From NCBI GenBank assembly GCA_905480285.1, contig CAJQPT010000136.1, positions 1 through 64,000 of the forward strand: a stretch of 64,000 nt of DNA, in the 5' to 3' direction. Position 1 is the first letter of the stretch, and every line of letters begins with the position of its first letter. The notes beneath the pieces are model-generated. The model did not search any database. It saw nothing but the letters and a program-made list of their open reading frames with translations, and was not told the origin of the DNA. Below are positions 22,420-64,000 of the stretch, in pieces. This DNA comes from an uncultured bacterium. GTDB taxonomy: Bacteria > Planctomycetota > UBA1135 > GCA-002686595. Made by a program: the position numbers and the translations under genes.

Positions 22420-22476
22420 CTCAGCGCGCGGGGCTCAGCCCGGGGGACTCAGCGCGCGGGGAACTCAGCGCGGAGC
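22420..22476. repeat. 14-16-bp degenerate tandem repeat abutting a stop codon
   Basis: Four copies of CTCAGCGCGCGG-like sequence start at 22420, 22434, 22448 and 22464. The last includes the stop codon (TCA on the plus strand) of the minus-strand lipoprotein gene ending at 22465. Confidence 0.75.
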
Positions 22477-25400
22477 CCTGGTTTCCAGGTGGTCGACGAA
22501 CTCGTTGAAGCCGCGGGCACGGAGCCCCTCATATAGACCCTCAAGCCGACGCTGCGGCGCACCCAGGGCCCAACAACCACCGGTCAAGCACGTGGTGTCG
22601 GCCTGGTCCTGACGCTGCAGGAGCGAGGCCGCGTCCTTCAAGACCTGGTCGGGATCCATGGGGCCCGCGTAGACGCAGGCCAGGTCCCCCTCCGCATCGA
22701 GCAGAAAGCCGAGCGGCAGCGGCATCTGCTCGAAGGGGGCCATCGTCCTGCCCAGGATGAGGTCCAACAGCAGCCGCTCTGTCTTCCCAGCTCTCCCGGA
22801 CCGTTCGCCGAGACCGAGAGCCACCGACGCCGCTCGTGCCGCGTCCGTTGCTCGAACGCCATCCAGCGCGAGCGCGAAGACCGGCAGGCCAGCCTTCTGG
22901 AGCGAGGCGAGGTAATGCTGCGACGCGGGAACCGCGCTGGACCAGAAGACCAGGAACAGCCCTCTGTCTCTGCAGAGCTCGTCCGCCCGTCGAGTCGGCC
23001 CTTCGAACGACGGTAGCCTCCACGCGCCCAAAGGGAACTCGGCGTGCATCGGCACCCGAGTCCTCGGCGGGCCAGCTGCACCGCCTCGAATCACCGGCGC
23101 CACCGGCGACGTCAGCGCGGGCAGGGAGCTCCCCTGTCGATACCGCCTCTTGACCACTCCCGCCCCCCTCTCGAGGCGCCACGAGGACCCGGCCAGCGGC
23201 TCCCCCGCCGCCGACTTGAAGGTCTCTTCGACACCATCGGGCCACTGCACGGCGACCTCCGAGGCGGCGGGCGGGATCTCGCCCTCACCAAGGCCGAAGA
23301 AGGCCTCGGGCGGCGAAGAGCCAAGGAAGCCGTCCCCCGCCACGATGCGGCAGCTGCGGGGAACTCCGCCAACCACCAGCGACACCAGCGCACCGATCCC
23401 GTCGCGATTCAGCCCCGATTGCTGGAGCCTGAACGAGACCGAGCTGCCCTCTGAAGCCCGCCCCTGGAAGACCCGCAGAATGGGCGCGGTTCGGTTTCGG
23501 AAGACGAGGTCGAGACGACCGTCGTGATCCAGATCACCGACCGCCAGTGACCGCCCGTCATCCGGCATGCCCAGGCCACTGGCGAGCGAGACGTCCTCGA
23601 AGCGAAGCCCACCTCGATTCAAGTAGGCGAAGGTGCGCTCCCGCGCGTTCCAGTCCTGCCTGCCGAACTGAGAGAGCTGCGAGATCACGGACCACGCGCC
23701 GAGGTACGCGTCCAGACGTGCGGGGTCGGGGTCGCCGGCGAGCGGAGTCGACCCCACGACACGGCGCCAGAAGAAGCTCTGCAGATCCGGTCCCCGCCGG
23801 CCGCTCAAGAATCCGTTGGGCACGACGATGTCGGGCAGCCCGTCTCGATTCCAATCCACGAAGCGCGATCCCCAGGCCCACCCGCCCGGCGCCGCCCCGG
23901 TCATCATCGTGAGGTCCTGGAACTGACCACCACCCAGCCCACGGAAGATCGAGTTCCCCCTGGCATGCCGAACGAACTCCTCCCGCACCTCGACGGACGT
24001 CCCGGGAAGGAACCGAGGGTCGCGGGTCACCCGGCCGCCGGCCGCCGAGAACATGTTGCTCACGATGAGGTCCCGGATCCCGTCCAGGTCCGCGTCCGCG
24101 AGGCTCAGGCCCATGCCGGCCGCCTTGTCCGTGAGCGGCCCATCCGGCGCGGGTTGAAAGCGACCGCCCTCCGCGAGGTACAGGTTGTTGCGGCCGAAGT
24201 CGTTCGCCACGTAGAGGTCCAGGTCGCCATCTCCGTCGACGTCGTCGAAGACCGAGACCATGCTGAACCGGTCATTATCGACATCGAGCCCGACCGCCCG
24301 GTTATCGGAGCGGAAGCCTCGCCGCTGCGCCGCCTCCGGGTCCGCCGTCAGGTTGCGCCAGAACACGTTGGGCGCACCATTCACCGCGTCGTGGTACGGG
24401 GTTGGCGCGGCCGGCCCCTCGCCACCCGCGCGGAAGTAGCGCGTGTCATAGAGGTCGAGGTCTCCATCGGCGTCGACGTCAGCCGCCGAGATTGAATACA
24501 CCCGCGCGGACCCCCCATTGGAGAGGACGCTCCGCTCGGTGAAGCGGCCCGCCCCGTCATTCCACGCCACCACCACGTCGGGACCGAGTCCGAGCACCAC
24601 GTCACGCGAGCCGTCCCCGTCGAGATCCGCGATCAGGACCCCGCCAGTCCCCTCGAGCCAATCCAAGCCGCGCCCGGCGCCTTCCTCGCTGAAGGCGCCG
24701 CCAGTATTCATCCAGACCAGGTTCGGCTGGCCCGCAGCCCTCGCCACCACAACGTCATCCCAACCGTCCCCGTCGAGGTCGCCCACCGCGACGCCGTGCA
24801 TGGCCGTCAAGATGTCGCCGATCGGTGCGAGGGAGTCTGTTCGTCCGGCGGCTTGAAGCGCGCCGAGGCCCAGACTCCTCGGGTCGTCCACCTCGCGGGT
24901 TGCTGCCCCGGCCAGGACGGTGCCGGTCACGTCGCGAAAGGGAGGATCGAGGGTCGATCGGCTCGTGCGCTCAACCGTGATGGAGGAGATTCTCGCGCGC
25001 TTCCCGAGCAGCCAGGTCACATCCATGAAGACGTCCCGCTGCTCCCGCGCCCCTGCCGATCCCTCGTCAGGATCGGTTCCCGTGCGCAGATGCACCCGCG
25101 TTCGCCCGATCGGATCCGCTCCCGCCTCGGGCCGCGGCGCGACCACGTCGGTCACGGTCGCTTCGACCACCACGTCCCCGGCGGCTCCTGGGATCAGCAG
25201 GCGCCCTTGGATCCAATCCAGCAGCGCCCCCCCGTCCAGCGGCGCCACGCCACCGTCTGACGAGGGGATCGTCCCTGAGAGATCACGCGTCACCAACCTT
25301 CGCAGTGCGGCGGAGTCGCCGCCCCGGGCCAGGTGACCAGCGACGTCCTTGAGCAGCCGCTCCGCCGAGCTCGCGAGGAGTTCACCCGGCCAGGGGTCGG

Positions 25401-25716
25401 CCTGCAGGCCGGGGTTGATGGCCGACGCAATCTGGTCGAAGTCGCCCCTCCGGGCCGGCCCCTGGGCCCGGATGATCTGAGGATCGCCGACGCCCGCCAC
25501 GGGCTCCTGACCGGGCCCCCGATCGGGCTCCTGGCCGGACTCCTGGCCGGGCGACTGGGCCGTGCCAAGCGCCAGCCGCCCGGCGCCCTCGGACGAGGCA
25601 CCGCTCGAACTCCCCGTCGCCCCGCCGCTCGCAGAGGTTGCCGGAGGACCCTCATCGGCGCATGAGCCAGCGAGGCAGAGGAGGGCCAGGGAGGCGCCTA
25701 TGCGGTGCAACAACAT
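22465..25716 (-). CDS. FG-GAP/ASPIC-UnbV lipoprotein with thioredoxin-like tail
   Basis: A 1083-residue exported protein. LCLAGSC near residues 14-20 is a lipobox, so it is probably lipid-anchored. A low-complexity linker (about 25-75) and a helical region precede FG-GAP/VCBS repeats (about 280-680) with calcium-loop phrases DLDGDGWDDV, DVDADGDLDLYD and DVDGDGDLDLYVAND that predict a beta-propeller. An ASPIC/UnbV domain follows (about 750-840; RDGIGALVSLVVGG, VQWPDGVEE). The last 170 residues look like a thioredoxin/peroxiredoxin fold (LFLVFWSSAVPASQHYLASL...GFLLDAEGDLACVYAG), but SSAVPAS occupies the place of the active CxxC. A role in binding surface polymers or proteins is inference. TAGACT lies 7 nt before the ATG. 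Confidence 0.85.
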   Translation of the reverse strand: MLLHRIGASLALLCLAGSCADEGPPATSASGGATGSSSGASSEGAGRLALGTAQSPGQESGQEPDRGPGQEPVAGVGDPQIIRAQGPARRGDFDQIASAINPGLQADPWPGELLASSAERLLKDVAGHLARGGDSAALRRLVTRDLSGTIPSSDGGVAPLDGGALLDWIQGRLLIPGAAGDVVVEATVTDVVAPRPEAGADPIGRTRVHLRTGTDPDEGSAGAREQRDVFMDVTWLLGKRARISSITVERTSRSTLDPPFRDVTGTVLAGAATREVDDPRSLGLGALQAAGRTDSLAPIGDILTAMHGVAVGDLDGDGWDDVVVARAAGQPNLVWMNTGGAFSEEGAGRGLDWLEGTGGVLIADLDGDGSRDVVLGLGPDVVVAWNDGAGRFTERSVLSNGGSARVYSISAADVDADGDLDLYDTRYFRAGGEGPAAPTPYHDAVNGAPNVFWRNLTADPEAAQRRGFRSDNRAVGLDVDNDRFSMVSVFDDVDGDGDLDLYVANDFGRNNLYLAEGGRFQPAPDGPLTDKAAGMGLSLADADLDGIRDLIVSNMFSAAGGRVTRDPRFLPGTSVEVREEFVRHARGNSIFRGLGGGQFQDLTMMTGAAPGGWAWGSRFVDWNRDGLPDIVVPNGFLSGRRGPDLQSFFWRRVVGSTPLAGDPDPARLDAYLGAWSVISQLSQFGRQDWNARERTFAYLNRGGLRFEDVSLASGLGMPDDGRSLAVGDLDHDGRLDLVFRNRTAPILRVFQGRASEGSSVSFRLQQSGLNRDGIGALVSLVVGGVPRSCRIVAGDGFLGSSPPEAFFGLGEGEIPPAASEVAVQWPDGVEETFKSAAGEPLAGSSWRLERGAGVVKRRYRQGSSLPALTSPVAPVIRGGAAGPPRTRVPMHAEFPLGAWRLPSFEGPTRRADELCRDRGLFLVFWSSAVPASQHYLASLQKAGLPVFALALDGVRATDAARAASVALGLGERSGRAGKTERLLLDLILGRTMAPFEQMPLPLGFLLDAEGDLACVYAGPMDPDQVLKDAASLLQRQDQADTTCLTGGCWALGAPQRRLEGLYEGLRARGFNEFVDHLETRAPR
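25502..25561. repeat. Degenerate 12-bp tandem repeat, five units, in frame
   Basis: Units like GGCTCCTGGCCG repeat with period 12 inside the start of the lipoprotein gene. They encode Gly-Gln-Glu/Ser-Pro tetrapeptides in the linker after the lipobox. Confidence 0.7.
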
Positions 25717-35907: not shown

Positions 35908-37778
35908 TCTACGTCGCCCTCGGGAAGGCTGGCTGGAGTCTGGGTGCCGGACTCCGCGGCGCCAGGAGCCGCATCGTCCGGATCCACGCCCTCAGCGTGG
36001 ATGATTTCGTACGAGTACCCCTGCTCCGTCAGGAACAGCTGCCGCTTCTCGGAGAAGTCCTGATCCCGGGAGCCCAGGGTCACCACCGAGTAGAAGGTGG
36101 CGCCGCTCCCGTCCGATTTGGGTCGGAGGACTCGACCGAGGCGCTGAGCCTCTTCCTGCCGGGATCCAAAGGTCCCGGAGACCTGGATCGCCACCGAGGC
36201 GTCCGGGAGATCCACGGCGAAGTTGCCCACCTTCGAAAGCACGAGGAGCTGAAGCTCCCCGTCGCGGAAGGCGGTGTACAGGCGCTCGCGCTCGGCGTTG
36301 GGCGTGCGGCCGGTCAAGAGCGGCGCGTCGAGCTCCTGCGCGAGGGCACGGAGCTGGTCCAGGTACTGACCGATCACGAGCACCCGCTCGCCATCGTGCT
36401 GCTCGACCAGCGACCGGACCACCGGAAGCTTGGCAGGGTTCTCCGAGGCCCTGCGGAACTGTTGCCGGGGGGGCGCCGCCGCGTACGAGCGGCGGTCCGC
36501 GTCGGAGAACGCCACCCGAACCTCGACGCAACGGGCCTCGGCGATGAACCCCTGCCCCTCGAGCACCTTCCAGGGCACGTCGTAACGCTTGGGTCCGATG
36601 AGGCAGAAGACCTCCTCCTCCTTGTTGTCCTCTCGGACCAGGGTCGCGGTCAGGCCCAATCGACGGCGGGCTTGGAGCTCGGCAGTGACGCGGAAGATCG
36701 GCGCAGGCAGCAGGTGGACCTCGTCGTAGACAACGAGCCCCCAGTTCTCTGACCGGAAGACCTCGAAGTGCTCGAACTCACCGGACTTCGATCTCCGCCA
36801 GGTCATCATCTGATACGTACTGATGGTGACCGGGCGTAGGTCCTTGGTCTCGCCGGTGTACTCCCCGACGTCTTCCGGCCGCAGTTCGGTCTTGTCCAGC
36901 AGCTCCTCCTTCCACTGACGAACGGCCACCGTGTTGGTGGTTAGGATCAGCGTCTTCGCTCCCACGAGGCTCATGACGGCCATTCCCGTGACCGTCTTTC
37001 CGGCGCCGCAGGGAAGGACCACCACCCCGCTCCCGCCCATCACCGTGCCCCCAGCGTGGAACGCCTCGGCGGCCCCGCGCTGATAATCACGGAGGCCAAA
37101 GGGCTTGCCCGAGAGCGTCACCTCCTTGAACTGAATCTCGAGGGGGTCCCCCTCCAGATAGCCCCCACGATCATCGACCGGGTAGCCGATGCGAATGAGC
37201 TTCTGCTTGAGGTCCCCGCGCTCGATACCCGACACGAACGCGCGCGGACCCTCGGGGCTCTCGACCACATTGCAAAGCGCTCGGAGGGCCTTGTGCGCCA
37301 GCACCTCTTCCAGGAGCCCCGCCTCGCCCCCGAGGAGCTCGAACTCGCCAGGGCCGTCTGTCGCACGCTCGATCCGCAGCAGGCCGTAGCGCCCGATCCA
37401 GCCGCGGATCTCGTCCACCACGCTCCCCGGCACGGGGACGCAGGCGTACCGAAACAGCACCTCCTCGATCTCCGCGGCGCTGATCCCCACGGCCGCAGCG
37501 TTCCACACCGAAACGGGCGTCACGCGGTAGGTGTGGAGGTAGTCCGGGCTCTTCTCGAGTTCCGCGAACACGCTCAGCTCGTCTCGGGCAGCCGTGAAGA
37601 GCGGGTGCTCCTCGGTGACAGGGTTCCCGTCAGCGTCCCGCTCGGGGCGACCGTCGGCGTCGACCCGCGCCCGCACCGTGTGCAGCATCAGCGTCCGGTC
37701 GCCCTGGACGATGAGCGGATTGGTGGGCAGCGGCGCCTGGAGCGGCGCCCCGCCGTCTGCGAATCGAGCCTCCGTCAC
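35904..37778 (-). CDS. XPB/Ssl2-type DNA helicase (SF2)
   Basis: A 624-residue 3'-5' DNA helicase of the XPB family, whose eukaryotic member opens DNA in nucleotide excision repair and transcription. The N-terminal damage-recognition-type domain is present (residues 20-130; NPLIVQGDRTLMLHT, YLHTYRVTPVSVWNAAAVG). The motor shows Walker A LPCGAGKTVTGMA (about 255), DEVH in VVYDEVHLLPAP (about 347), GLTATLVRED containing the XPB-specific RED motif (about 378), and motif VI QRLGRVLRP (about 548). It overlaps the tandem uvrA gene upstream and its companion gene downstream by 4 nt each, so all three are translationally coupled. A repair role with UvrA is inference. Confidence 0.93.
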   Translation of the reverse strand: MTEARFADGGAPLQAPLPTNPLIVQGDRTLMLHTVRARVDADGRPERDADGNPVTEEHPLFTAARDELSVFAELEKSPDYLHTYRVTPVSVWNAAAVGISAAEIEEVLFRYACVPVPGSVVDEIRGWIGRYGLLRIERATDGPGEFELLGGEAGLLEEVLAHKALRALCNVVESPEGPRAFVSGIERGDLKQKLIRIGYPVDDRGGYLEGDPLEIQFKEVTLSGKPFGLRDYQRGAAEAFHAGGTVMGGSGVVVLPCGAGKTVTGMAVMSLVGAKTLILTTNTVAVRQWKEELLDKTELRPEDVGEYTGETKDLRPVTISTYQMMTWRRSKSGEFEHFEVFRSENWGLVVYDEVHLLPAPIFRVTAELQARRRLGLTATLVREDNKEEEVFCLIGPKRYDVPWKVLEGQGFIAEARCVEVRVAFSDADRRSYAAAPPRQQFRRASENPAKLPVVRSLVEQHDGERVLVIGQYLDQLRALAQELDAPLLTGRTPNAERERLYTAFRDGELQLLVLSKVGNFAVDLPDASVAIQVSGTFGSRQEEAQRLGRVLRPKSDGSGATFYSVVTLGSRDQDFSEKRQLFLTEQGYSYEIIHAEGVDPDDAAPGAAESGTQTPASLPEGDVE

Positions 37779-40700
37779 CGGGCCTGCCCCCTCTTCTTCT
37801 TCGGCGGCGTCCCCGCCGTCTGCTGCCCCGACACCTGCTGCCCCGCGGGCGCGGTCTTCACGCTGGCCTTGACCTTCGTCTTGCGAGATGGAGATCGCTT
37901 CTTGCCGGATGCGCCCTTGGCCACGCGGCGTTTTCCGGAGCCAGCCCCCGCGGCCCGCACCAGCCAGCGACCCGTCACCGAGGCCTTGTCTCCCGCGAGC
38001 TCCGCGGGGGTCCCTGAGGCAATGATCTGCCCGCCGGCCTCACCGCCCTCCGGGCCCAGTTCCACCAGTCGGTCGCAGATCTCCAGGAGCTCGGTGTGAT
38101 GCTCGATGACGACCACGGCGTTGCCCCTTCGAACGAGCCGTCCAAGACAGCGCGCGAGGTGTTCGACATCCGTGGCGGCCAAGCCCGTGCTCGGCTCGTC
38201 GAGCACCAGCACGCTGCGCTGCGCGACCCCGGAGGGAGAGTCCGCCCGCCACAGCTCCGAGGCGAGCTTGATGCGCTGGGCCTCGCCCCCGGAGAGGGTG
38301 GTCGAGGATTGGCCGAGCGACATGTACCCCAGGCCGACGTCATGCAGCGTGGCGAGGATCCGCCGCGGCGCGGGGGCGGCCCCGAAGAATTCGAGGGCCT
38401 CGTCCACGCTCATGGCGAGCACATCCGCGATGGACTTGCCGCGGTAGCGCACCTCGAGGACCTCGGGCTGATAGCGAGACCCATCGCACTCTTCACAGGT
38501 GAGCCAGAGGTCCGAGAGGAACTGCATCTCCACCAGGGTGGACCCGCGCCCGTCGCATCCAGCGCAGCGCCCCTTGGTGGAATTGAACGAGAAGTTCGAG
38601 GGCGTGAAGCCCTTCATCCGAGACTCGGGCGTCTTGGCGAACAGCTCCCGCAGATGCGGCATCAGCTCGACGTAGGTCGCCGGAACGCTGTGGGGCGTTC
38701 GCCCGATGGGCGTGGCGTCGACCACCGCGAGCCGCGTCCCTTCGGGCACCTTCGCGCTCTTCCACCGACCCGCAGCCGACTCCCCGCGTATCGCCGGGAC
38801 GAGGGCATCCAGGACGAGGGTGCTCTTACCGCTCCCCGAAGGCCCACAGACCCCGAGCAGTTCCCCGAAGCGAACCTCCAGGTCCACCCCTCTCAGATTG
38901 TGCTCGCGGGCCCCCTTCAGCTGAACCGTGGCGTCGCCTGACCCGAAGGCGTCCACGAGCGCCTGCTGGCGCGCCGCCTCCAGCTCAGCGTCCTCGCCCG
39001 CAGCGTCCACGGCGAGAATCGCCGCGAGATCGACCTCGCCCCGCAGGTACCGTCCGGTCCCAGAGGTCGGGTGAGCCCGGATCTCCTCCGGCCCACCTGC
39101 GGCCACCACCTCGCCGCCGAGGACTCCCGCCCCCGGTCCCATGTCAACAATGTGGTCGGCCCGCCCCATCAGCTCGGCGTCGTGCTCCACCACCAGCACC
39201 GTGTTCCCCGCGTCGCGCAGGTCCTCCAACGCGCCGGCCAGCTGGTCGATATCCCGCGGGTGGAGGCCCACCGTCGGCTCATCGAGGACGTAGCACACCC
39301 CCACGAGCTCCGACCCGAGGCTCGCTGAGAGCCGGACGCGCCGCGCCTCTCCACCGGAGAGCGTCGAGGTTGAACGATCCAGGGACAGGTAACCCAGTCC
39401 GACGCGCTCCAGGAGCGCGAGCCGGGAGCGCAGCTCGCTGAGGACCTGGTCCATGGCGGACGCCACGTTCTTGCGGAGCTTCAGCGCGCCCAGCCAGAGA
39501 AGGGCCTCCTCGACGGTCATGCCGAGCACCTGCGGGATTCGCTTTCGGCCCACGAGCACGCTCCGGAAGGCTGGCGCCAGCCGCTCCCCGTGGCAGACCG
39601 GACAGGTCTGCCGGGTCATCACGCGCTCCAGAATCCCGGCCCACTCGGGGTCGTCCGTCTTGGCGTGCCAGGCGTCGATGTGTCCGCAGAGACCGCTCCA
39701 CTCCGACGTGTACTCCTGGTCGAAGTCGAAGTTGCGCATCTGCTTGGAGACGTGCACCTCGTAGCTCCCCCGCGCCCCAGCGCCACGCAGCAGGAGCGCT
39801 TGGTGCTTGGCGCTGAGCTTCTCCAGGGGCTTGTCGAGGTTCACCCGATGCGACCGGGCGACGGTCCGAAGCAAGGTCTCGTAGTAGCCCTTGCCCTTGA
39901 CCAGGTACCGGCCCAGCTTGCCACCTATGGCCCCGTCGGTGAGAGGGCGCGTGGGGTCCGTGATGAGCTTCTCGGGGTCCGCCCGGAAGATCGACCCCAG
40001 ACCGTCGCAGCTCTGGCAGGCCCCGACGTGAGTGTTGAACGAGAAGTGACGTGGCTCGAGCTTGGCCCCGAGCTGGAAGCCGCAGGTGGTGCAGGCGCCG
40101 TGGGTGCTGTATTCGATCCGCGCTCCGCCCTTGACCAGCACGGACACACGGCCGTGGGACGCCGCTGCCGCCTGCTCCACGGCGTCCGCGATTCGAGCCC
40201 GTGCCGCGGTCGAGAAGCTCACGCGATCGACCACGAGGTCCACCGCCTCGGCGTCATCAAAGGGGAGCGCCTCAGCGTCCAGGCGGTACTCCTCACCGTC
40301 GATCATCACCCTGACAAACCCGGCCGCCGTCCAGTTGGGCAGCAGGGCTCGCAGGCGCTCGGGCACGGACTCTGCGCTGTTGCCCAGCTTCACGGCGTGG
40401 CCGAGGACCGGCGCGAGGATCCATCCCTTGGGCTTCCCGTCCAGTTCGCCCGTGGTCTTGAGGATCTCACGCGTGACCTTGCCAGGGTCCGCAGGACGCA
40501 GGGGCTCGCCGTGCTCGGGGCACCGGGCTTCGCCAGCCCGGGCATAGAGCACCCGCAGTTGATCGTGGATCTCCGTCGTCGTGGCCACCGTGGACCGCGG
40601 ATGCCCCCGCACCGTGGAGGCCTCCACCGCGACAGAGGGGCCGAGGCCCTCGATACGCTCCACCGGCGGCTTGTCCTTGGTCCCCAGGAACTGTCGCGCG

Positions 40701-43700
40701 TAGGTGGAGAGGGACTCCACGAAGCGGCGCCGCCCCTCGGTGTAGATCGTGTCCAGCGCGAGGGAGGACTTCCCTGAGCCGGAAGGCCCTGTGATCACCG
40801 TGAGTGACCCGCGCGGAATAGCGACGTCCACGCCCTTCAGGTTGTGGGTCCTGGCGCCCTGGACGAGCAGCTCCGTCGGCTGGCGCACCCCGCGCGAGCG
40901 CGGCAGCGGGCGGGTCTTCAGGCGCCGACGGTCCGTGAGCTCACGCAGCGCCTCGCCCGTGGGCGTGTCCTGCACAGCGAGCTCCTCCGGGCTCCCGCAT
41001 CCGAGCACCCGGCCGCCACCCTCGCCGCCCTCCGGGCCGAGATCCACCAGGTGATCCGCGGCCTGGATCAGCTCCAGGTTGTGCTCGATCACGAGCACCG
41101 TGTGCCCCTTGTCCACCAGGCGCTGCAAGGCGCCGACCAGCCGCCCGACGTCCTCCATGTGAAGCCCGGTCGTGGGCTCATCCAGGAGGAAGAGCGTGTG
41201 CCCGTTCGGCCGCCGCGACAGGTGTGTCACGAGCTTGATGCGCTGCGCCTCCCCACCCGAGAGCGTCGGCGAGGGCTGGCCGAGGGTCAGGTAGCCGAGC
41301 CCCACATCCATCATCAGGCCGAGGGGCCGGCGCAGCAGAGGGTGGTCCTCGAACAGCTCGTGTGCCTCCTCCACCGTCATGGCGAGCACGTCGGCGATCG
41401 ACCGCTCGCGGTAGCGAACGTCGAGGGTCTCCTCCTGGAAGCGCCGCCCGCCGCACTCCTCACAGGGCACGGTGACCGGGCTCAGGAACTGCAGCTCCAT
41501 CACCTTCACGCCCGCCCCGAGGCACTCCTCGCAGCGGCCGCCGGCCACGTTGAAGCTGAAGCGTGACTTGGTGTACCCCCGCATCTTCGCCTCCGCGAGG
41601 CTCGCGAAGAGCTCGCGGATCGGCCCCAGAATCTTGGTGTAGGTGGCCGGGTTCGATCGCGGCGTTCGCCCGATCGGCGACGCGGTGATCGAGATCATCT
41701 CATCGATGTGCTCGAGGCCGAACACGGCGTCATGGGGCCCGGGATCCGGCGTCTCCCGCTCGAGGTGCCGGAGCACGGCACGCTTGAGGGTACGCTCCAC
41801 CAGCGTCGACTTGCCCGACCCCGAGACGCCGGTCACGGCGGTCAATGTGCCCAGGGGAATGCGAGCGTCGACCCCCTTGAGGTTGAACGCGGAGGCGCCG
41901 CGGATCTCGAGGAACTCGCCGCTGCCGGAGCGCCGCTCCTCGGGCGCAGGGATCACAATCTCCCCGCGCAGCAGCCGGCCTGTCGGCGTGTCAACGCCGG
42001 ACCTCGCGACCTCGGAGGGCGGTCCTGAGGCGACGATCTCCCCGCCGCGGCTGCCCGCCGAAGGTCCCACGTCGATGAGCCAATCTGCGCTCCTGAGGGT
42101 GGACTCGTCGTGCTCGACGATCACGACGCTGTTCCCAGCGTCACGCAGGTTCGCGAGCGCCCCCAGCAGCCGGTCATGGTCCCTCGCGTGGAGGCCAATC
42201 GAGGGCTCATCCAGCACGTAGAGCACCCCCTGGAGCCCCGCGCCAAGCTGCGCGGCGAGGCGGATTCGTTGCGCCTCCCCTCCGGAGAGCGTGTCCGCAC
42301 CCCGGTCGAGCGTCAGGTACCCAAGCCCCACATCCACGAGGAACCGCACCCGCCGCTCGATCTCGAGCAGTAGGTCACGGGCGATGCGCCCCTGGCGCTG
42401 AGTCGTCTCCGCCGAGCTCAGGCGCTCCACGAGCTCTGAGACCGGTCCTGACGTCAGATCCGCGAAGCGCAGCCCGCCGAAGCGGACGTGCCGGGCGAAG
42501 AGGTTGATCCGTGAGCCGTCGCACTCCGTGCAGACCTGCTCGGACAGGAAGCGCTCCACCATCTTTCGGCGCGAGCCCTTCGCCAGGGCGCGCCGGAGGT
42601 TCCCCAGGACGCCGTGGAACACTCGGTTCCAGCTGCCCTTGCCACGCGAACGCTGACCGTTCCACTTGAACGCGTCCCGATAGCGCTTCTCCCCCGTGCC
42701 CTCGAGCACCGCCCTTCGCGCTCCTCGAGACATCTCGGCCCAGGGCGTGTCCAGGTCGAAGCCCGCCGACTCACCCACCCGCTCCAGGAACTCGAAGTCC
42801 ACGTTTGGGAAGAGCAGCCCGTTCCCTGCGGCCTTGGTGACCGCGAGGGCTCCCTCTCGCAGGGTGAGTGCCGGGTCGCGGATCACCGCCGCCTCGGACG
42901 GCGCCTTTAGCACGCCGAGCCCACCGCACGCGCCGCATGCCCCGTGCGGTGAGTTGAAGGAGAACAGTCGGGGCTCAAGCTCAGGGAGCTCACGACCGGT
43001 CTCCGGGCAGACCCGCTGGGTGGACCAGGTGCGCTCTCCCTCCTCACCGATCGCAACCACCTCGCCGCCACCCAGGTCCAGCGCTTGCTCAACGGCGTCC
43101 CGCAGGCGACCGGGCTCGCCTGCGTCGGGCTTGAGCCGGTCCACAATGACCTCGACCGTGTGACGCTTGTAGCGCTCGAGCTCCGGCGCGTCCTCCAGTC
43201 GAACGATCTCTCCGTCCACCCGCGCGCGCACGAAGCCGCGGCGCTGGAGGTCCTGGAAGAGCGCGCGGAACGAACCTTTGCGGTCCTTGATCAGGGGCGC
43301 CGCCACGACGAGCTTGCGCCCTGCGTGGGCGGCGAGCAGCTCCTGGACCACAGCCTCTGGTGTCCGGGACTCCACCGGCAGATCGCACCAGGGGCTGTGC
43401 GCGACTCCGGCCCGTGCGTAGAGGACTCGGAGGTGATCCACGACCTCCGTCAGCGTCCCGACGGTGGAGCGATTGCCACGGGCGATGCTCTTCTGATCCA
43501 CGGCGATGGCCGGGGAGAGCCCCTCGATCGAGTCCACGTCCGGCTTCTGCAAGCCGCCGAGGAACTGGCGGGCATAGGCGGAGAGCGTCTCGAGGAAGCG
43601 CCGCTGCCCCTCGCGGAAGAGCGTGTCGAAGGCGAGGGAGGACTTGCCGGAACCGGACACGCCGGTCACGGCGACGAGGGCCCCCCGAGGCAGCGTCACG

Positions 43701-43795
43701 TCCACCGAGCGCAGGTTGTTCTGCCTCGCGCCCCGGATCACGATCTCGCCCGCGTCGGACCCGGAAGTCGTGGGAGCTGCGGGTCGAGAAGGCAT
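37775..43795 (-). CDS. uvrA: Tandem-duplicated excinuclease ABC subunit A
   Basis: UvrA is the damage-sensing ATPase of nucleotide excision repair. This 2006-residue protein is two full UvrA copies in one chain. Copy 1 (1 to about 970) has Walker A at about 45 and 657 and LSGGEAQRI signatures at about 501 and 843. Copy 2 (about 970-1955) has Walker A at about 1003 and 1653 and signatures LSGGEARRV at about 1478 and LSGGEAQRI at about 1830. The C-terminal zinc finger is intact in both copies (CEECLGAG...CEECGG and CAGCDGRG...CEECDG). The first zinc finger is intact in copy 2 (CTTC...CQSC) but reads CPET...CGAC in copy 1. A Lys/Arg-rich tail of 50 residues follows. Start at ATG 43795 gives the usual [12 protein letters not shown] opening. 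Confidence 0.95.
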
Positions 43796-43981
43796 CGGGT
43801 CGTGGGCGTGCTGGGTGGAAGCGCGAGGCAGCGCGCAGGTCGTAAGGGCGCGCCCCGCCGACTTGTCGACGAGGGAGGGGCCCCGGAGACTTGCCTCGGG
43901 CGTACTGAAGCCGATCAGGATACCAGCCGGCGTCGTGGGCACCAGCCGCCCGAGGCCGGCGAAATGCCGCAGCAGCCCCCT

Positions 43982-56110: not shown

Positions 56111-57400
56111 TCAGCCGCCGAGGGGTTCTCCCTGCGCGTCGTACTCGTCCAGGGGATCCACCACGGCCACCCCGTCCTGGGCCGCGGGCTGCGGCGCGGT
56201 GTCAGCCGCCCAGGCCGCGGCCTGAGCCACGCCCGCCTCATCCAAGCCGTTGGCCCTGCGGTCCGCTGTGTAAACACCCGAGAGGTCGGCCACCAGCTGC
56301 CCCGCTTGGTCCCAGAAGGCCCAAGGGCCCTCCCGGAGGCCGTTCATGGAGACGCCGATCTGCTTGCGCCGGCCATTCGGCCACCACTCCTGCTGCAGAC
56401 CGTTGGAGACCTGGCCCTCAACCACGCTGATCACCTTCGGTGATCCGTCCTCGAACCACTGCCGCAGGACTCCCGTGCGCTGGCCAGACTCGTGAGAGAC
56501 CATCATGAACAGCTGGCCGTTGGGGTGCCACTCGCGGACCACCCCAGTGACCTTGCCCGCCTCCCAGCTCGTGATCAGATGGCGGCTCCCATCGTTGTGC
56601 CAGTGCCGCCCCTCCCCGACCTGGGCGCCGTTCTCCCAGATCTTCTCGTACATAGGCTGCCCGCTGGGCCACCAAGCACGCTCCGTGCCGTGTTGCTTAC
56701 CCGCCACGAAGGGAAGGACATGGGCATCGGAGCCATCCTCGTGCCACCCCGTCATGGAGAGGACCTCGCCGTCGTCTGAGTGCTCCCCCGATCGAAGCAG
56801 CTGACCGCTCGGGCTGAACCCCTGATGGAGCCCAACCGGCTTGCCGCCGACGTATTCGCCCGTGACATAGACCTCACCGTTTGCATGCCAGCGCACGTGG
56901 AGGCCGACCGCCTCACCGTCCACGAACGAACCCTTGAAGGACTCCTTGCCGCCCTCGTGCCACTCCGCCCAGTCTCCGACCTTTTCGCCGCCCTGGTACT
57001 GGCCCTGCAGCTTCTTGTCGCCGTTGGGGAACCAGGCCTGGGTCGGGCCGGTCAGCGCGCCGTCTGAGTACTGGTACCGGGCGGCCTCGAGGTCGTTGTT
57101 GTGGTACTCGACCCACTCCCCGATCTCCCGGCCCTGGGCGTCGTACTGGCCCTTCTTCTGGACCTTCCCGGAGGCGTCCCACCAGGTCCGCGGCCCCACA
57201 AACTGGCCGTAGAGGGTGGTGCCTTCGGATTTCTTGGCCCGCTTCAGCTGCGGATTGTGCCACTCGACCACGACGGTGGCCTCGGAAGTGCTGACCTCCT
57301 CACCACCTGAACAGGCGCCCAGGAGGGCCCCCGTGAGGGCAATGCCGGCCCATACGCCGGTGCGGAGGGGTGAGATCGAGGCGAGTGCGGAACGCTTCAT
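56111..57400 (-). CDS. YwqK/MORN-repeat lipoprotein
   Basis: A 429-residue exported protein. The lipobox LLGAC lies near residues 26-30. The rest is a run of about 13 repeats of 20-25 residues with the pattern G..W.(E/W)WHxNGxxxxxGxYxxGxxxG, for example GDWAEWHEGGKESFKGSF and GVVREWHPNGQLFMMVSHE. This is the MORN-like repeat of YwqK-type antitoxin-fold proteins, which form extended beta sheets. No toxin gene is next to it, so a structural or binding role at the cell surface is more likely. TAGAAT lies 6 nt before the ATG. Confidence 0.85.
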   Translation of the reverse strand: MKRSALASISPLRTGVWAGIALTGALLGACSGGEEVSTSEATVVVEWHNPQLKRAKKSEGTTLYGQFVGPRTWWDASGKVQKKGQYDAQGREIGEWVEYHNNDLEAARYQYSDGALTGPTQAWFPNGDKKLQGQYQGGEKVGDWAEWHEGGKESFKGSFVDGEAVGLHVRWHANGEVYVTGEYVGGKPVGLHQGFSPSGQLLRSGEHSDDGEVLSMTGWHEDGSDAHVLPFVAGKQHGTERAWWPSGQPMYEKIWENGAQVGEGRHWHNDGSRHLITSWEAGKVTGVVREWHPNGQLFMMVSHESGQRTGVLRQWFEDGSPKVISVVEGQVSNGLQQEWWPNGRRKQIGVSMNGLREGPWAFWDQAGQLVADLSGVYTADRRANGLDEAGVAQAAAWAADTAPQPAAQDGVAVVDPLDEYDAQGEPLGG

Positions 57401-59326: not shown

Positions 59327-60190
59327 ATGAAGCCCCTGCTCAAGTTCCTCCTCAAGCCCCTCGTCATCGTGGGCCTCGGGGTGATCGCCCTGATCGCTGC
59401 CGGTATCGTCACCGTCCCACCCGCAGCCAAGGCAGCGGTCGAGAAGGGCTCAGCGTTCGCCTTCGGCGTCCCTGCCACCCTGGGGTCCATCAAGGCCTCA
59501 CCCGGCCTGACCACGACGACGCTCGGCTTCTCCGACTACGAGATCCAGAGCCCGGAGGGCTTCGAGGCGCCGCTGCTCACGTTCGGACGCTTCGAGGTCG
59601 GCGTCGGGACACGCTCCCTGGTCGGCCCGGTCAAGGACCTGGGCGTCCTCGAGATCCAGGACGTCGAGCTGACGATCCTCCAGAACGGACTACGGAGCAA
59701 CCTCGCCCCCGTGATCGAGCAGGTCCGCAGCCTCGCGCAGAGGTCCAACGAGGCCGCGCAAAGCAAAGGCGCGTCGGATTCAACGGCCGAGGCTGAGGTG
59801 GCCGGAGGCCCCGGGCCGCGCATCCGCGTGGGACGGGTCAAGATCAGCGGGATTCGAGCGCGCCTCAAGGTGGACGGGATTCCAGGGGTGAAGCCGGTGG
59901 ACGAAGCCGTGGAGCTCCCGGCGCTCGAGCGCGACTGGACCGACGCGTCGGGTGAGGACGGGTTCACGGTGGCCGACCTGGGAGCGCGCCTCCTGGAGGA
60001 CATCGAGATCAGCGCCCTCGACGGCCTACGGGGCCAGGTCCCCGATGAGGTCATCGAGCTCGTGGAGAAGGGCCTCCAGGGTGGCATGGACCAGATCTTG
60101 GACCAGGCGACAAAGTCCCTGGAAGGGGAGCTTGGAGAGCAGGCTGGCGAGCTACTCGATCTGGGCAAGGGCCTGCTCGGCGGGCGCTAG
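59327..60190 (+). CDS. Hypothetical membrane-anchored AsmA-like protein
   Basis: A 287-residue protein with one N-terminal membrane segment (PLVIVGLGVIALIAAGIVTV, about residues 11-30). The outer part has a repeated beta pattern that recalls AsmA/DUF748-type envelope proteins: GVPATLGSIKASPG, YEIQSPEGF, LGVLEIQDVELTILQNG and RIRVGRVKISGIRARLK. The last 60 residues are amphipathic helices. AsmA-like proteins act in lipid or outer-membrane traffic, but this is a distant likeness. It ends in a 4-nt overlap with the convergent giant gene. Confidence 0.65.
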   Translation: MKPLLKFLLKPLVIVGLGVIALIAAGIVTVPPAAKAAVEKGSAFAFGVPATLGSIKASPGLTTTTLGFSDYEIQSPEGFEAPLLTFGRFEVGVGTRSLVGPVKDLGVLEIQDVELTILQNGLRSNLAPVIEQVRSLAQRSNEAAQSKGASDSTAEAEVAGGPGPRIRVGRVKISGIRARLKVDGIPGVKPVDEAVELPALERDWTDASGEDGFTVADLGARLLEDIEISALDGLRGQVPDEVIELVEKGLQGGMDQILDQATKSLEGELGEQAGELLDLGKGLLGGR

Positions 60191-63100
60191 ACCGCGCCCG
60201 GTAGCGGCGCCGGCTCAGGATCACCATCAGCGCCGTAGTCGCCAAGCAACCAAACCTGCCGCCGGTAGTTCCGGATGTCCAGCAGGGTCAACGACTGCGT
60301 GGCACGCAGCGCGACCACCTGCTCGGTCGTGCGCGATGGGTGCCGGAGCGCCGACGCGAGCCGCTCCTCGGCCGCCAGGCGATCGGGGCTCCCGGTCCCC
60401 GAGAGCGCGCTCACAAGGCAAGCTCGGGCCCCGTCGACGTCCGCCGCCACCACCCGCCACGCCGTCCGGCGAAGCCGTCTCCGCGCCTGACGTCGCCGCC
60501 AAGCGAGGTCCGAGGCCTCCGGCGACGCCCCGTCAGCCGGTGAGCGGTCCAGCCGCTCCCCGGGGCCCTGGGGCAGCGCGCCCCCCGCCAGCGCAGCCCT
60601 CGTCACACGCTGCTCTCCCCCGCTCGTCCACCAGCGCCGGAACGCCAGCCGGAGTCGGAGGCGAGGTCGAGCCGAGGGACGCTTGGCCCCGTGCAGCAGC
60701 GCGTCCACCACCGTGTCCACCAGCACCTCCTCTCCGAACAGCGCGGAGCGAACTCCATCCGCATCCGAGAGCACGTACAGGTAGAGGCACCGCAGGCTCT
60801 CGGCGTCCACCGTGGGATCCACCCCCAGCCGCGCAGCGAGCCTGTCCTTGAGCCCACCAAGCAGCGACGCCGCGAGACGGGCGACGTCCCGGCCGGCCCG
60901 TCGGCGCAGGCTTCGCAGCAGCCGAATCGACGTCGGGTCGGCCCCCAGGAACCGGGCGTCGGCGAGCGCCGCGGAGGGCTGCGCGCGCCAGGGAACGCCC
61001 GCCCCCGCCAGGCCCGCGCTCGATTCCGCTGCGCCCATGGAATCCGACGATGCTGCCGGGAGCGTCACCCCGTGGTACTCCGGGTCGAGGATCGCCCGCA
61101 GCTCCATCGCTGCAACGGCCGCGGGGCCCCGCATACGCTGGATTTTCCGCGCTGCCACGTCGAAGCCAGCCTCGTGATCGGGGCCAGACTCAAGGGCCAC
61201 GCCTGGACGGCGGATCACTCGCACGGCCTTGATCAGGCGCCCGAAGCCTGCAGCGAGGAGCCGCGACATGACCAGCCCGAGGCGCAGAGGGAGCACCACG
61301 ACCCTCCCACCCTGCAGCCAGTCCTCGTAGAGGCTGCGAAGGTTCAGGACCCGGGACTCCAGCGGCAGCAGATGAAGGGGGTAGGTCCCGAACACAGAGC
61401 GCACGAGCGCCCTGCGATCGCGCCGCATCTTGTCGGCAACCGCCGTGCCGAAGCGCCGCTCGATCTCCCCGTCACGGCCAGCGTGAGCGTCCAGGAAATG
61501 CAGCACGGTGAAGGCCGTCGTCAGCTCCCCCGCACGAAGCTCCAGCCGGCGCTTTCCGCCTCCCTCGTCTCCGTCGTCTCCGCCGTGGAGCGCGTCGCCA
61601 TCGGCGCCTCCTCGCCCCTCTGCCTCATCCCCCTGGGCCGCGCCGTCAAGCCATCGGCGGTGCGCGGCTCGCTCCCCTTCGCTGGCCCGCTCCAGGTCAG
61701 ACTCAGGAATCGCGTGAGCGTTGTACTCGACGATCAAGCGCGCCGCGCGAGTCTCCAGTGACCGGCTGATGGCATGGAACCAGAGGTAGGGACCCCGAAC
61801 CAACGTCCGTCGGCGCTCGAGGTCAAGGCTCTGCATCCATCGCAGGCGGGAGGCCGTGACGCGGCCAGAGGCGCCCGCGAACCGGCGCACGGCGAGGTTC
61901 CCGAGGAGCTGGCTGGTCGCCCGGGTATCGGTGTGGGCGAGCAACGCCCCATCCAGCTGATCCCGATAGAGGAGCAGGGCGCGAGCCACGTGATCGAAGC
62001 CATCCCCGCCCGAGCGGAGCGGTTCCCCGCTCTGGAGAAACTCCTTCAACCCGGAGTGAAACCGCCGCCCGTCCGCCTCAACCAGCGCGTCGCTCTCACC
62101 CCGAAGCGCACGCTCGGGCCGAAAGACCCGATCCCGAAGGAAGCTGGCGTCCTCGTCATGGCGCCGGGCCTTGAGGCTGTCCATCAGGTAGAGGAACTGC
62201 GCTCGTGCCACCTTCTCGTGAAAGGTCGTCGTGTCCCGCGCCATTCTCTGGAGCCATGACCCGATCGCGAGGAGCACGAGGCAGCTGCCCCCGAGCACAT
62301 AGAAAGCGGTCCCGACCACCCCGGAGATGAGGCGAATTACCGCGAAGCTCTTCAGCTCAGCGTCGCCTTCGGGGTCCAGCGCCATGAGCGCCAGCTGCAC
62401 GCCGAGGAAGGGGATCCCGAACAGCAGGAGGCGGACGGCGGGGCGTGAGGTGCGCGCCACGAGGGCAGACCCGATCCGCCCGACCACCTCACCTGGCGTG
62501 AGGGTGCCGTGGAGGTCGGCCCACCACAGGACCCGGCGGAGCGCTCGATGGAGCCCCGCCGCCAGGACGTGCACACTGCGGGAGACATGCTCGGCCGCTG
62601 CGGCGCCGAGCGCGTCGGGGGCCGCCCAGGAGCCGAGCCCCGGCAGCCACCTGAGGGGCGACAGGGCCACCAATCGGGCCGCCCGCGCGAGCCGCTCCAC
62701 CGTGCTCGAACCGAGCTGCTCCACCAGCTCCTCCCCGCTGACCTCGGACAGCTGACGCAGGAGATCTTCCGCCAGCGGGAGTCGGTGACGACGGCGTCCC
62801 GGGTCCCCTGACGGGGCCGCCGCGGTGCGCTCGAGTGCTCCCTCAAGGACCTCAGCCCTCGCCGCCTCGAGCACCTCTCGTGCCGCAAGGTCTCCGGACG
62901 TATGGGCCTCGTGAAACCACGCGTCCAGCGAGCGTCGCAGGGATGAGAGCCCGCGGCGCAGCGCGGCGTCGCGACGCCAGACCTCGCGCTGCTCTGCCGG
63001 CGTCGGAAAGAGGATGACCTCCATCTCCAGCGCCGCGGCATGGCGTCGAACCACGCGGTCCAAACCACGGAGGAGGAACCCGAGCGCCCGCACGAACCAG

Positions 63101-64000
63101 ATGACGGGCCGCAACGCACGCAGGTAGGCACCCAGCCTCGCCAGTCGCAGCAGCCGCAACAGACGACTGGCCTGACCGGCCTCGCCCACCAGGCCGTCCA
63201 GACCGCTGATCAGTCCAAACGGAAGCGCCGGGAGGAAGTCGGTCCAGATATGCCGGCGTAGCCAGAGGCGGCGCCGGCTCACGAAGGCCAGCTTCACGCC
63301 GAAGTCCACCAGCAAGAAGCCGCAGATGAGCGTGTCGACCGCGGTCATGGCAACGTCAGGGAGGCCCAGGTCGACGACCCCAACTGCCCGGGCCACCTCG
63401 AGCACCAGAAGCACCAGGACCCCGAGGATCGAGGCCACGACCATCCGCTCCCAGAGCGCCACGCGGCCCTCTCCGAAGCGGGTCTCAAGCTTCTGCTGCA
63501 AGCGCTGCTCCACGAGCTCGCGCTCGACCCGGCGCAGCCTCCGAGCGAGCCTCGCGCGGTCCCGACCGGGTTCAGCCTCGAGCTCCGCAAGGTGCCAGAG
63601 CAAGGCGTCCTCAGCCTCCCTCAAGACGCCGACGCACTCCGCAGAGGTGGCCTCGCCGGTGAGCAGAATGGCGTCGTCCGCGTGATCGACCATGCGCCCG
63701 GCCATCGCGGTTCGCAGGTCAGCATCCAGCCGGCCCGCAGCGGCGTGGCTCGCCAGCGACCGACGCAGTTCGGCACGCGTGATGCTCACCTCGTCTGGCG
63801 CCTGACCCTCCTCGAATGTCTGGCGCTCCGGGTCGTTCGTCCAGGCCCCTGAGTCACCGGCCTGGGCCCCCGAGGCGTCAATCTGGGTCTCCGAGAGCTC
63901 GCCCTGCCGAACGCGGGCGTCTGCGGACCGGCGCGGATCCGAGGGAGACCCCGATGCCGCCTGCCCGACCCGAACGCCAGCGAGCAGGAACTCCTCGACT
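60187..64000 (-). CDS. Giant membrane protein with voltage-sensor-like N-terminal part (5' end probably outside window)
   Basis: From GTG 63789 the product has 1200 residues. The frame stays open to the right edge with coding-like codon use (about 80% G/C at third positions over 68 codons), so the gene probably starts outside. After a helical N-terminus come four hydrophobic stretches (about 116-238): the second is VDTLICGFLLVDFGVKLAFV and the last is RLLRLLRLARLGAYLRALRP. That order, with regularly spaced Arg in the last, recalls the S1-S4 voltage sensor of cation channels. No pore or selectivity filter follows. Two more membrane segments lie at about 450-510. The remaining 690 residues are Arg-rich, helical and unrecognised, ending near SLTLLDIRNYRRQVWLLGDY. 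Confidence 0.65.
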   Translation of the reverse strand, partial: VEEFLLAGVRVGQAASGSPSDPRRSADARVRQGELSETQIDASGAQAGDSGAWTNDPERQTFEEGQAPDEVSITRAELRRSLASHAAAGRLDADLRTAMAGRMVDHADDAILLTGEATSAECVGVLREAEDALLWHLAELEAEPGRDRARLARRLRRVERELVEQRLQQKLETRFGEGRVALWERMVVASILGVLVLLVLEVARAVGVVDLGLPDVAMTAVDTLICGFLLVDFGVKLAFVSRRRLWLRRHIWTDFLPALPFGLISGLDGLVGEAGQASRLLRLLRLARLGAYLRALRPVIWFVRALGFLLRGLDRVVRRHAAALEMEVILFPTPAEQREVWRRDAALRRGLSSLRRSLDAWFHEAHTSGDLAAREVLEAARAEVLEGALERTAAAPSGDPGRRRHRLPLAEDLLRQLSEVSGEELVEQLGSSTVERLARAARLVALSPLRWLPGLGSWAAPDALGAAAAEHVSRSVHVLAAGLHRALRRVLWWADLHGTLTPGEVVGRIGSALVARTSRPAVRLLLFGIPFLGVQLALMALDPEGDAELKSFAVIRLISGVVGTAFYVLGGSCLVLLAIGSWLQRMARDTTTFHEKVARAQFLYLMDSLKARRHDEDASFLRDRVFRPERALRGESDALVEADGRRFHSGLKEFLQSGEPLRSGGDGFDHVARALLLYRDQLDGALLAHTDTRATSQLLGNLAVRRFAGASGRVTASRLRWMQSLDLERRRTLVRGPYLWFHAISRSLETRAARLIVEYNAHAIPESDLERASEGERAAHRRWLDGAAQGDEAEGRGGADGDALHGGDDGDEGGGKRRLELRAGELTTAFTVLHFLDAHAGRDGEIERRFGTAVADKMRRDRRALVRSVFGTYPLHLLPLESRVLNLRSLYEDWLQGGRVVVLPLRLGLVMSRLLAAGFGRLIKAVRVIRRPGVALESGPDHEAGFDVAARKIQRMRGPAAVAAMELRAILDPEYHGVTLPAASSDSMGAAESSAGLAGAGVPWRAQPSAALADARFLGADPTSIRLLRSLRRRAGRDVARLAASLLGGLKDRLAARLGVDPTVDAESLRCLYLYVLSDADGVRSALFGEEVLVDTVVDALLHGAKRPSARPRLRLRLAFRRWWTSGGEQRVTRAALAGGALPQGPGERLDRSPADGASPEASDLAWRRRQARRRLRRTAWRVVAADVDGARACLVSALSGTGSPDRLAAEERLASALRHPSRTTEQVVALRATQSLTLLDIRNYRRQVWLLGDYGADGDPEPAPLPGAV

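Follow-up and report, generated by a model that had tools for sequence, protein, structure and literature searches.

The window, the whole 64,000-nucleotide stretch of DNA analysed here (G000:C136:1-64000), belongs to a fragmented planctomycete genome that is 84% complete, and its contig ends at 67767. The reading frame at 60187-63999 on the minus strand was confirmed to be present, with its stop at 60187. The window end truncates the gene, and on contig C136 the frame stays open for 1582 codons, past any plausible start. The probable start, inferred from sequence comparison, is a GTG at contig position 64497 (L002:4497-4495), outside the window, which would give a protein of 1436 amino acids. 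This codon was preferred because the close relatives L005 and L007 show GTG-ACn at the equivalent position. Residue numbers refer to the 1436-residue protein throughout (Table 1). The original prediction for this locus, a giant protein with a channel-like voltage sensor and no pore, had called for homologues and for the true 5' end in the adjoining sequence; full-length relatives were indeed found, and the adjoining sequence supplied the probable GTG start.

Table 1. Location of the gene and of the predicted features of its product in the window.
Feature	Position	Strand	Basis
Gene of the predicted voltage-sensor protein, part in the window (residues 167-1436 and stop)	60187..64000	minus	ORF, contig extension, conserved start context, full-length homologues
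Pre-S1 helix, cytoplasmic, Arg-rich, residues 303-344	63466..63591	minus	AF2 helices; charge count
Voltage-sensor domain S1-S4, residues 345-478	63064..63465	minus	Ion_trans, PDB profile matches, hhalign, channel-VSD model, Foldseek
S1; E367 near outer end	63385..63465	minus	Hydropathy, column counts
S2; D388, position 395, D398	63283..63348	minus	Column counts; D-x6-F-x2-D spacing as in planctomycete K+ channels
S3; D420, P426	63190..63246	minus	Column counts; K+-channel alignment
S4 and extension; R445, R448, R451, R454, R470, R477-G-L-D480	63064..63171	minus	Column counts, Arg-run test
Helical linker S4-TM5, cytoplasmic, residues 479-667	62497..63063	minus	AF2, conservation
TM5-TM6 two-helix membrane hairpin, residues 688-748	62254..62436	minus	Hydropathy, AF2 helices, loop lengths and charges
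Putative effector: all-alpha cytoplasmic domain of orphan fold, residues 749-1436	60190..62253	minus	AF2, Foldseek, family libraries, VSD-less relatives

Two divergent genes lie upstream of the gene, one coding for a small membrane protein, the other for an M18-like peptidase; downstream it is flanked by convergent genes for a DUF748-like protein and a sulfatase. These four neighbours are conserved within the genus only and offer no functional clue. Elsewhere on the minus strand of the window lie genes for a 2055-residue double-length UvrA (37775-43942), in which the UvrA interaction domain and the DNA-binding domain are each present twice in one chain, for a putative lipoprotein built of MORN_2 repeats (56111-57400), and for an FG-GAP repeat protein of 1083 residues with an ASPIC/UnbV domain (22465-25716).

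One round of homology search, restricted to Planctomycetota genomes, returned full-length relatives of approximately 1150-1430 amino acids (the L013 protein, at about 1205, is a compact one), and 73 sequences were aligned as a family. Matches were present in 57 of 154 genomes of the order and in 76 of 392 across Planctomycetota, the latter count including a few matches of the voltage-sensor domain (VSD) alone to ordinary channels. A search with the non-VSD part of the protein found 62 of the 392 genomes, including a few with weak matches only to VSD-less or doubtful proteins. The family is present in about 60 of the 392 sampled genomes. Its distribution is patchy, and in the family-level group of the window's own organism only two genera have the full-length protein. 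A match in L137 was rejected as false since it resembles a GrpE-type coiled coil.

The predicted voltage-sensor domain

Family profiles were used because searches with the single sequence were weak: the window protein alone falls below the Pfam cut-off for Ion_trans (E = 0.12) and gives only a weak match in the PDB (E 2.5). Pfam Ion_trans matches 13 of 18 relatives, with a best E-value of 1.5e-7, and a search of genomes found members above the curated 25-bit cut-off in G025, G006, G009, G029 and G007. The matches span only profile positions 4-126, approximately, of 241, which correspond to S1-S4 without S5-P-S6. When the family profile was compared with all PDB sequences, all 47 matches up to E = 1 were voltage-gated channels, the best being Kv3.1 (5.8e-5). 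The same profile also picks out planctomycete K+ channels of 240-400 amino acids with TVGYGD or TIGYGD filters. An hhalign comparison of the family with nine of these channels gave a probability of 98.9% and an E-value of 4e-17, and the alignment covers S1-S4 only. Furthermore, an HMM of the channels' S1-S4 matches 72 of the 73 family members (E < 1e-3) and none of 730 locally shuffled copies. This last control is not independent of the hhalign test, as both use the nine channels that the family profile had found; the Ion_trans and PDB-profile evidence is independent of that comparison.

An AlphaFold2 model of residues 303-800, built with 73 sequences, reached a pLDDT of 85.4 and a pTM of 0.61. 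Its top Foldseek match in the PDB was the isolated KvAP sensor 1ORS, with a probability of 1.00 and a TM-score of 0.65 on the target. The E-value was only 0.25, because the sensor makes up approximately one quarter of the model, and we count this match as supporting, not as decisive. Profile searches and structure prediction both came out in favour of the sensor that the original prediction had read from the sequence. Neither of the two outcomes that would have refuted it occurred: the model forms a four-helix S1-S4 bundle, and the homologues have no clear unrelated fold, S1-S4 of Ion_trans being the only known domain in them. The sequence evidence identifies residues 345-478 as a true voltage-sensor domain (S1-S4) of the K+-channel type.

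The charges expected of a sensor are conserved in the alignment. In S1, the position of E367 is acidic (E or D) in 65 of 73 relatives. Position 388 in S2 is aspartate in all 73, and position 398, which is the acidic counter-charge in the second span originally noted as VDFG, is D or E in 70 (D in the window protein). At position 395 of the charge-transfer centre, 58 relatives have phenylalanine, and the window protein and 14 other relatives have leucine. S3 carries D or E at position 420 and proline at position 426 in every relative. The D-x9-D and D-x5-P spacings match those of the aligned planctomycete K+ channels.

The Arg-rich helix RLLRLLRLARL, likened to S4 in the original prediction, corresponds to residues 445-455. 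Arginines are placed at steps of three residues (R445, R448, R451 and R454), followed by the invariant R470 and R477-G-L-D480. Conservation as arginine is 58/73 for R445, 67/73 for R448 and 73/73 for R451. The longest run of R or K at three-residue steps averages 4.4 over the 73 relatives versus 2.0 in shuffled versions of the same segments; in the window protein the run is 4 (shuffle p = 0.016). The arginine spacing is beyond chance in both the protein and the family.

The chain beyond S4

The layout after S4 agreed with what had been described from the sequence: a helical region, two more spans (around 688-706 and 721-748) and then 688 residues. Approximately 190 cytoplasmic helical residues separate S4 from TM5, and this linker carries an ADLHG motif in which D661 and G664 are invariant. 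The hairpin loop is short and acidic, with a median of about 9-17 residues, and TM6 extends as a long cytoplasmic helix. From the pre-S1 segment onward, where the mean net charge across the family is +4.3, the charges along the chain run +4.3 inside, -0.8 outside, +2.8 inside, -1.1 outside, +2.6 inside, +3.0 inside and -0.8 outside. The topology, with the N-terminus, linker and C-terminal domain inside, fits the positive-inside rule.

The absence of a pore, also part of the original prediction, held for every known type that was sought. A TxGYGD-type filter was found in 0 of the 73 relatives, an HMM of the pore half of K+ channels matched 0 of 73, and the AF2 model has no pore helix between TM5 and TM6. 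The family thus fails the criterion for voltage-gated channels, an S5-P-S6 pore with selectivity filter, having no filter, no match to the pore model and too short a loop. There is no canonical pore in the family, although it remains possible that the hairpin builds one of a novel type.

Confidence was high for the model of the cytoplasmic part. AF2 of residues 482-1436 gave an all-alpha model with a pLDDT of 87.9 and a pTM of 0.88. Foldseek comparison of this model with 350,542 PDB chains produced no match at E <= 0.001, the best probability being 0.21 with a TM-score below 0.15, and no Pfam, NCBIfam, PADLOC (defence) or PHROGs (phage) family was found for the domain. A designed diiron protein matched by the effector profile in the PDB (E 0.007) was rejected as compositional, since the match lies in a helical region. 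The motifs of this part of the chain include D661-L-H-G, LDGAxLHxSDxKTTEQLLGN, GPYLWFxFIT, DRRxxxREIFGT, ARKIxRMRxP and LRAxxDPEYxG. None of the catalytic motifs looked for in the 73 relatives (HCx5R, Walker A, GGDEF, kinase loop) is conserved. Among the residues that do not vary are D857, Q863, W906, R1028, R1117, R1121, D1138 and Y1141. One may speculate that the invariant set of Arg, Lys and Asp residues binds an anionic ligand or a partner; the activity of the domain is unknown.

Two kinds of relatives indicate how the protein is put together. The uncharacterised planctomycete proteins L113 (574 amino acids; 375-2096, minus strand), L134 (526 amino acids; 589-2166, plus strand) and L136 (2-1360, minus strand; cut by the contig end) consist of hairpin and cytoplasmic domain, without VSD and without linker domain. 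They share with the family D857, Q863, W906-F907, R1028, D1138 and Y1141. On the other hand, L141 of another planctomycete (ORF 504-1796, plus strand, 431 amino acids) has the family-type pre-S1 helix, the VSD and an RGMD motif after S4, but differs in possessing S5-P-S6 with a TGGFGD filter and in lacking the effector. It matches the family profile with E 4e-32 and Pfam Ion_trans with 5.9e-19, and in a VSD tree it falls inside the pore-less family with a support of 0.79, its inner position being unresolved. From these proteins it follows that sensor and output can be separated and that recombination has brought them into different arrangements. L141 is possibly an evolutionary intermediate between a channel and the pore-less sensor; it is a single case, and the direction of change is not settled.

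There is no family-wide conservation of gene neighbours. In 17 genomes of one family-level clade (f6), however, a gene for a single-span membrane protein lies directly before that of the VSD protein, and in most of those genomes with a long enough flank it is itself preceded by an ECF sigma factor gene. In L122 (6788-11982) the stop codon of the sigma factor gene and the start codon of the following gene overlap as ATGA, with approximately 34 bases between the second and third genes. The three genes form one operon in this clade. The single-span protein (c3) is a putative anti-sigma factor, an assignment that rests on position and topology only; its matches to Pfam RskA_C (E 0.037) and to the PDB are unconvincing, and its presumably periplasmic part is conserved and of no known family. 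The sigma operon was not found beside the gene in the window's genus, and no homologue of the putative anti-sigma factor was detected in the window's genome, in a search without positive control.

Proposed voltage control and its alternatives

We consider it probable that the family consists of bacterial membrane proteins whose channel-type S1-S4 sensor governs another part of the same polypeptide that is not a channel. In such a mechanism, a change in membrane potential would move the S4 arginines R445, R448 and R451 past the acidic charge-transfer centre of S2 and S3. The continuous S4 helix, together with the invariant R470 and the RGLD480 segment, would carry this motion, by way of the helical linker, into the TM5-TM6 hairpin and cytoplasmic domain, and so switch the activity of the 690-residue domain. 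The VSD with its conserved charges, the lack of a canonical pore, the separable hairpin-plus-cytoplasmic module, the positive-inside topology and the sigma linkage of one clade can be taken as established at the level of sequence. Movement of S4 with voltage and the role of the cytoplasmic domain as output are inferred, and there are no functional data. The sensor fused to a non-channel effector that the original prediction proposed is the best reading, but the role of the cytoplasmic domain as a voltage-controlled effector remains an inference. Against the preferred reading speak the leucine at position 395 of the window protein and 14 other relatives, the weak Foldseek E-value, the Ion_trans E-value of the window protein, the lack of a conserved catalytic motif and the failure to find the sigma operon next to the gene in the window's genus.

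An unorthodox voltage-gated channel or transporter, in which TM5 and TM6 oligomerise to a new pore and the cytoplasmic domain serves as gate or assembly platform, would explain why the VSD is joined to exactly two further spans, the number found in channels, and why TM6 lies within a very long helix as in some two-span channels. The relative L141, which joins a family-type VSD to a real pore, also fits. This reading nevertheless seems unlikely, given the hairpin loop of 9-17 residues without modeled pore helix, filter motif or match to the pore model, the approximately 190 cytoplasmic residues from S4 to TM5, which are unlike a short S4-S5 linker, and the occurrence of the hairpin module without VSD. 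If instead the VSD itself conducted protons as in Hv1, with the remainder being regulatory, the VSD without pore and the acidic S1 residue E367 would fit, but the S4 signature RxWRxxR occurs in only three of the 73 relatives and not in the window protein, which makes this highly improbable.

It is also conceivable that the protein is a membrane scaffold with the VSD as an inherited anchor that has lost voltage sensing. The replacement of the aromatic plug by leucine, seen in the window protein as well as 14 relatives, and the wide retention of only three S4 arginines, could be read that way. We regard this as quite doubtful because exactly the voltage-sensing charges, needless for an anchor, are kept throughout the phylum: D388, P426, D/E420 and R451 in every relative, D/E398 in 70 and R448 in 67.

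Voltage control of a non-channel partner, the preferred reading, has precedents in eukaryotes. Voltage-sensing phosphatases (Ci-VSP, TPTE family) likewise have a pore-less S1-S4 in front of a cytoplasmic domain, with S4 running straight into a linker, whereas they contain a PTEN-like phosphatase with an HCx5R loop and no extra membrane hairpin. Membership is not met: HCx5R occurs in three of 73 relatives, which is at chance, and there is no phosphatase family or fold match. In the eukaryotic sperm Na+/H+ exchanger SLC9C1, a VSD acts via intracellular helices after S4 on a non-channel partner within the same polypeptide, as we propose for the family, but a 13-span exchanger stands in front of the VSD and a CNBD is present as well; none of 18 members had a Pfam match to an exchanger domain or CNBD. 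From what the sequences reveal, the family would work like both, as proposed, yet belongs to neither, their defining domains not being met.

Prokaryotic 6-TM K+ channels (KvAP, planctomycete Ion_trans) have a VSD that is homologous to that of the family, with the same acid and arginine positions; these channels have S5-P-S6 with TVGYGD, and the pore-less family has none. A second channel-type VSD exists in the window's genome besides that of the pore-less protein, in an ordinary Ion_trans channel encoded at G000:C65.

According to a 2023 review, known prokaryotic VSDs are all accompanied by a selective pore (PMC10377628). A 2024 review names VSP, SLC9C1, TMEM266 and Hv1 as pore-less VSD proteins, all eukaryotic (PMC13095418), and non-channel VSD proteins are described as all eukaryotic elsewhere too (PMC12332018). 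In open-access text we found no papers on VSDs in planctomycetes. We incline, by a little, to the view that no earlier prokaryotic example is known of a voltage sensor running a protein other than a channel, and that here a K+-channel-type VSD acts through a two-helix membrane module on what an all-helical cytoplasmic domain of new fold does, with one clade tied to an ECF sigma/anti-sigma pair, i.e., to voltage-linked gene regulation.

A pore-less VSD joined to a domain of orphan fold across Planctomycetota would bring into bacteria an architecture reported only from eukaryotes. The pore-bearing and VSD-less relatives provide natural intermediates for the recombination of sensors and outputs. 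The family is a candidate case of a bacterial protein, not a channel, that membrane voltage controls directly, and it would make directly testable the standing question of whether bacteria have a dedicated sensor, other than a channel, for their membrane potential.
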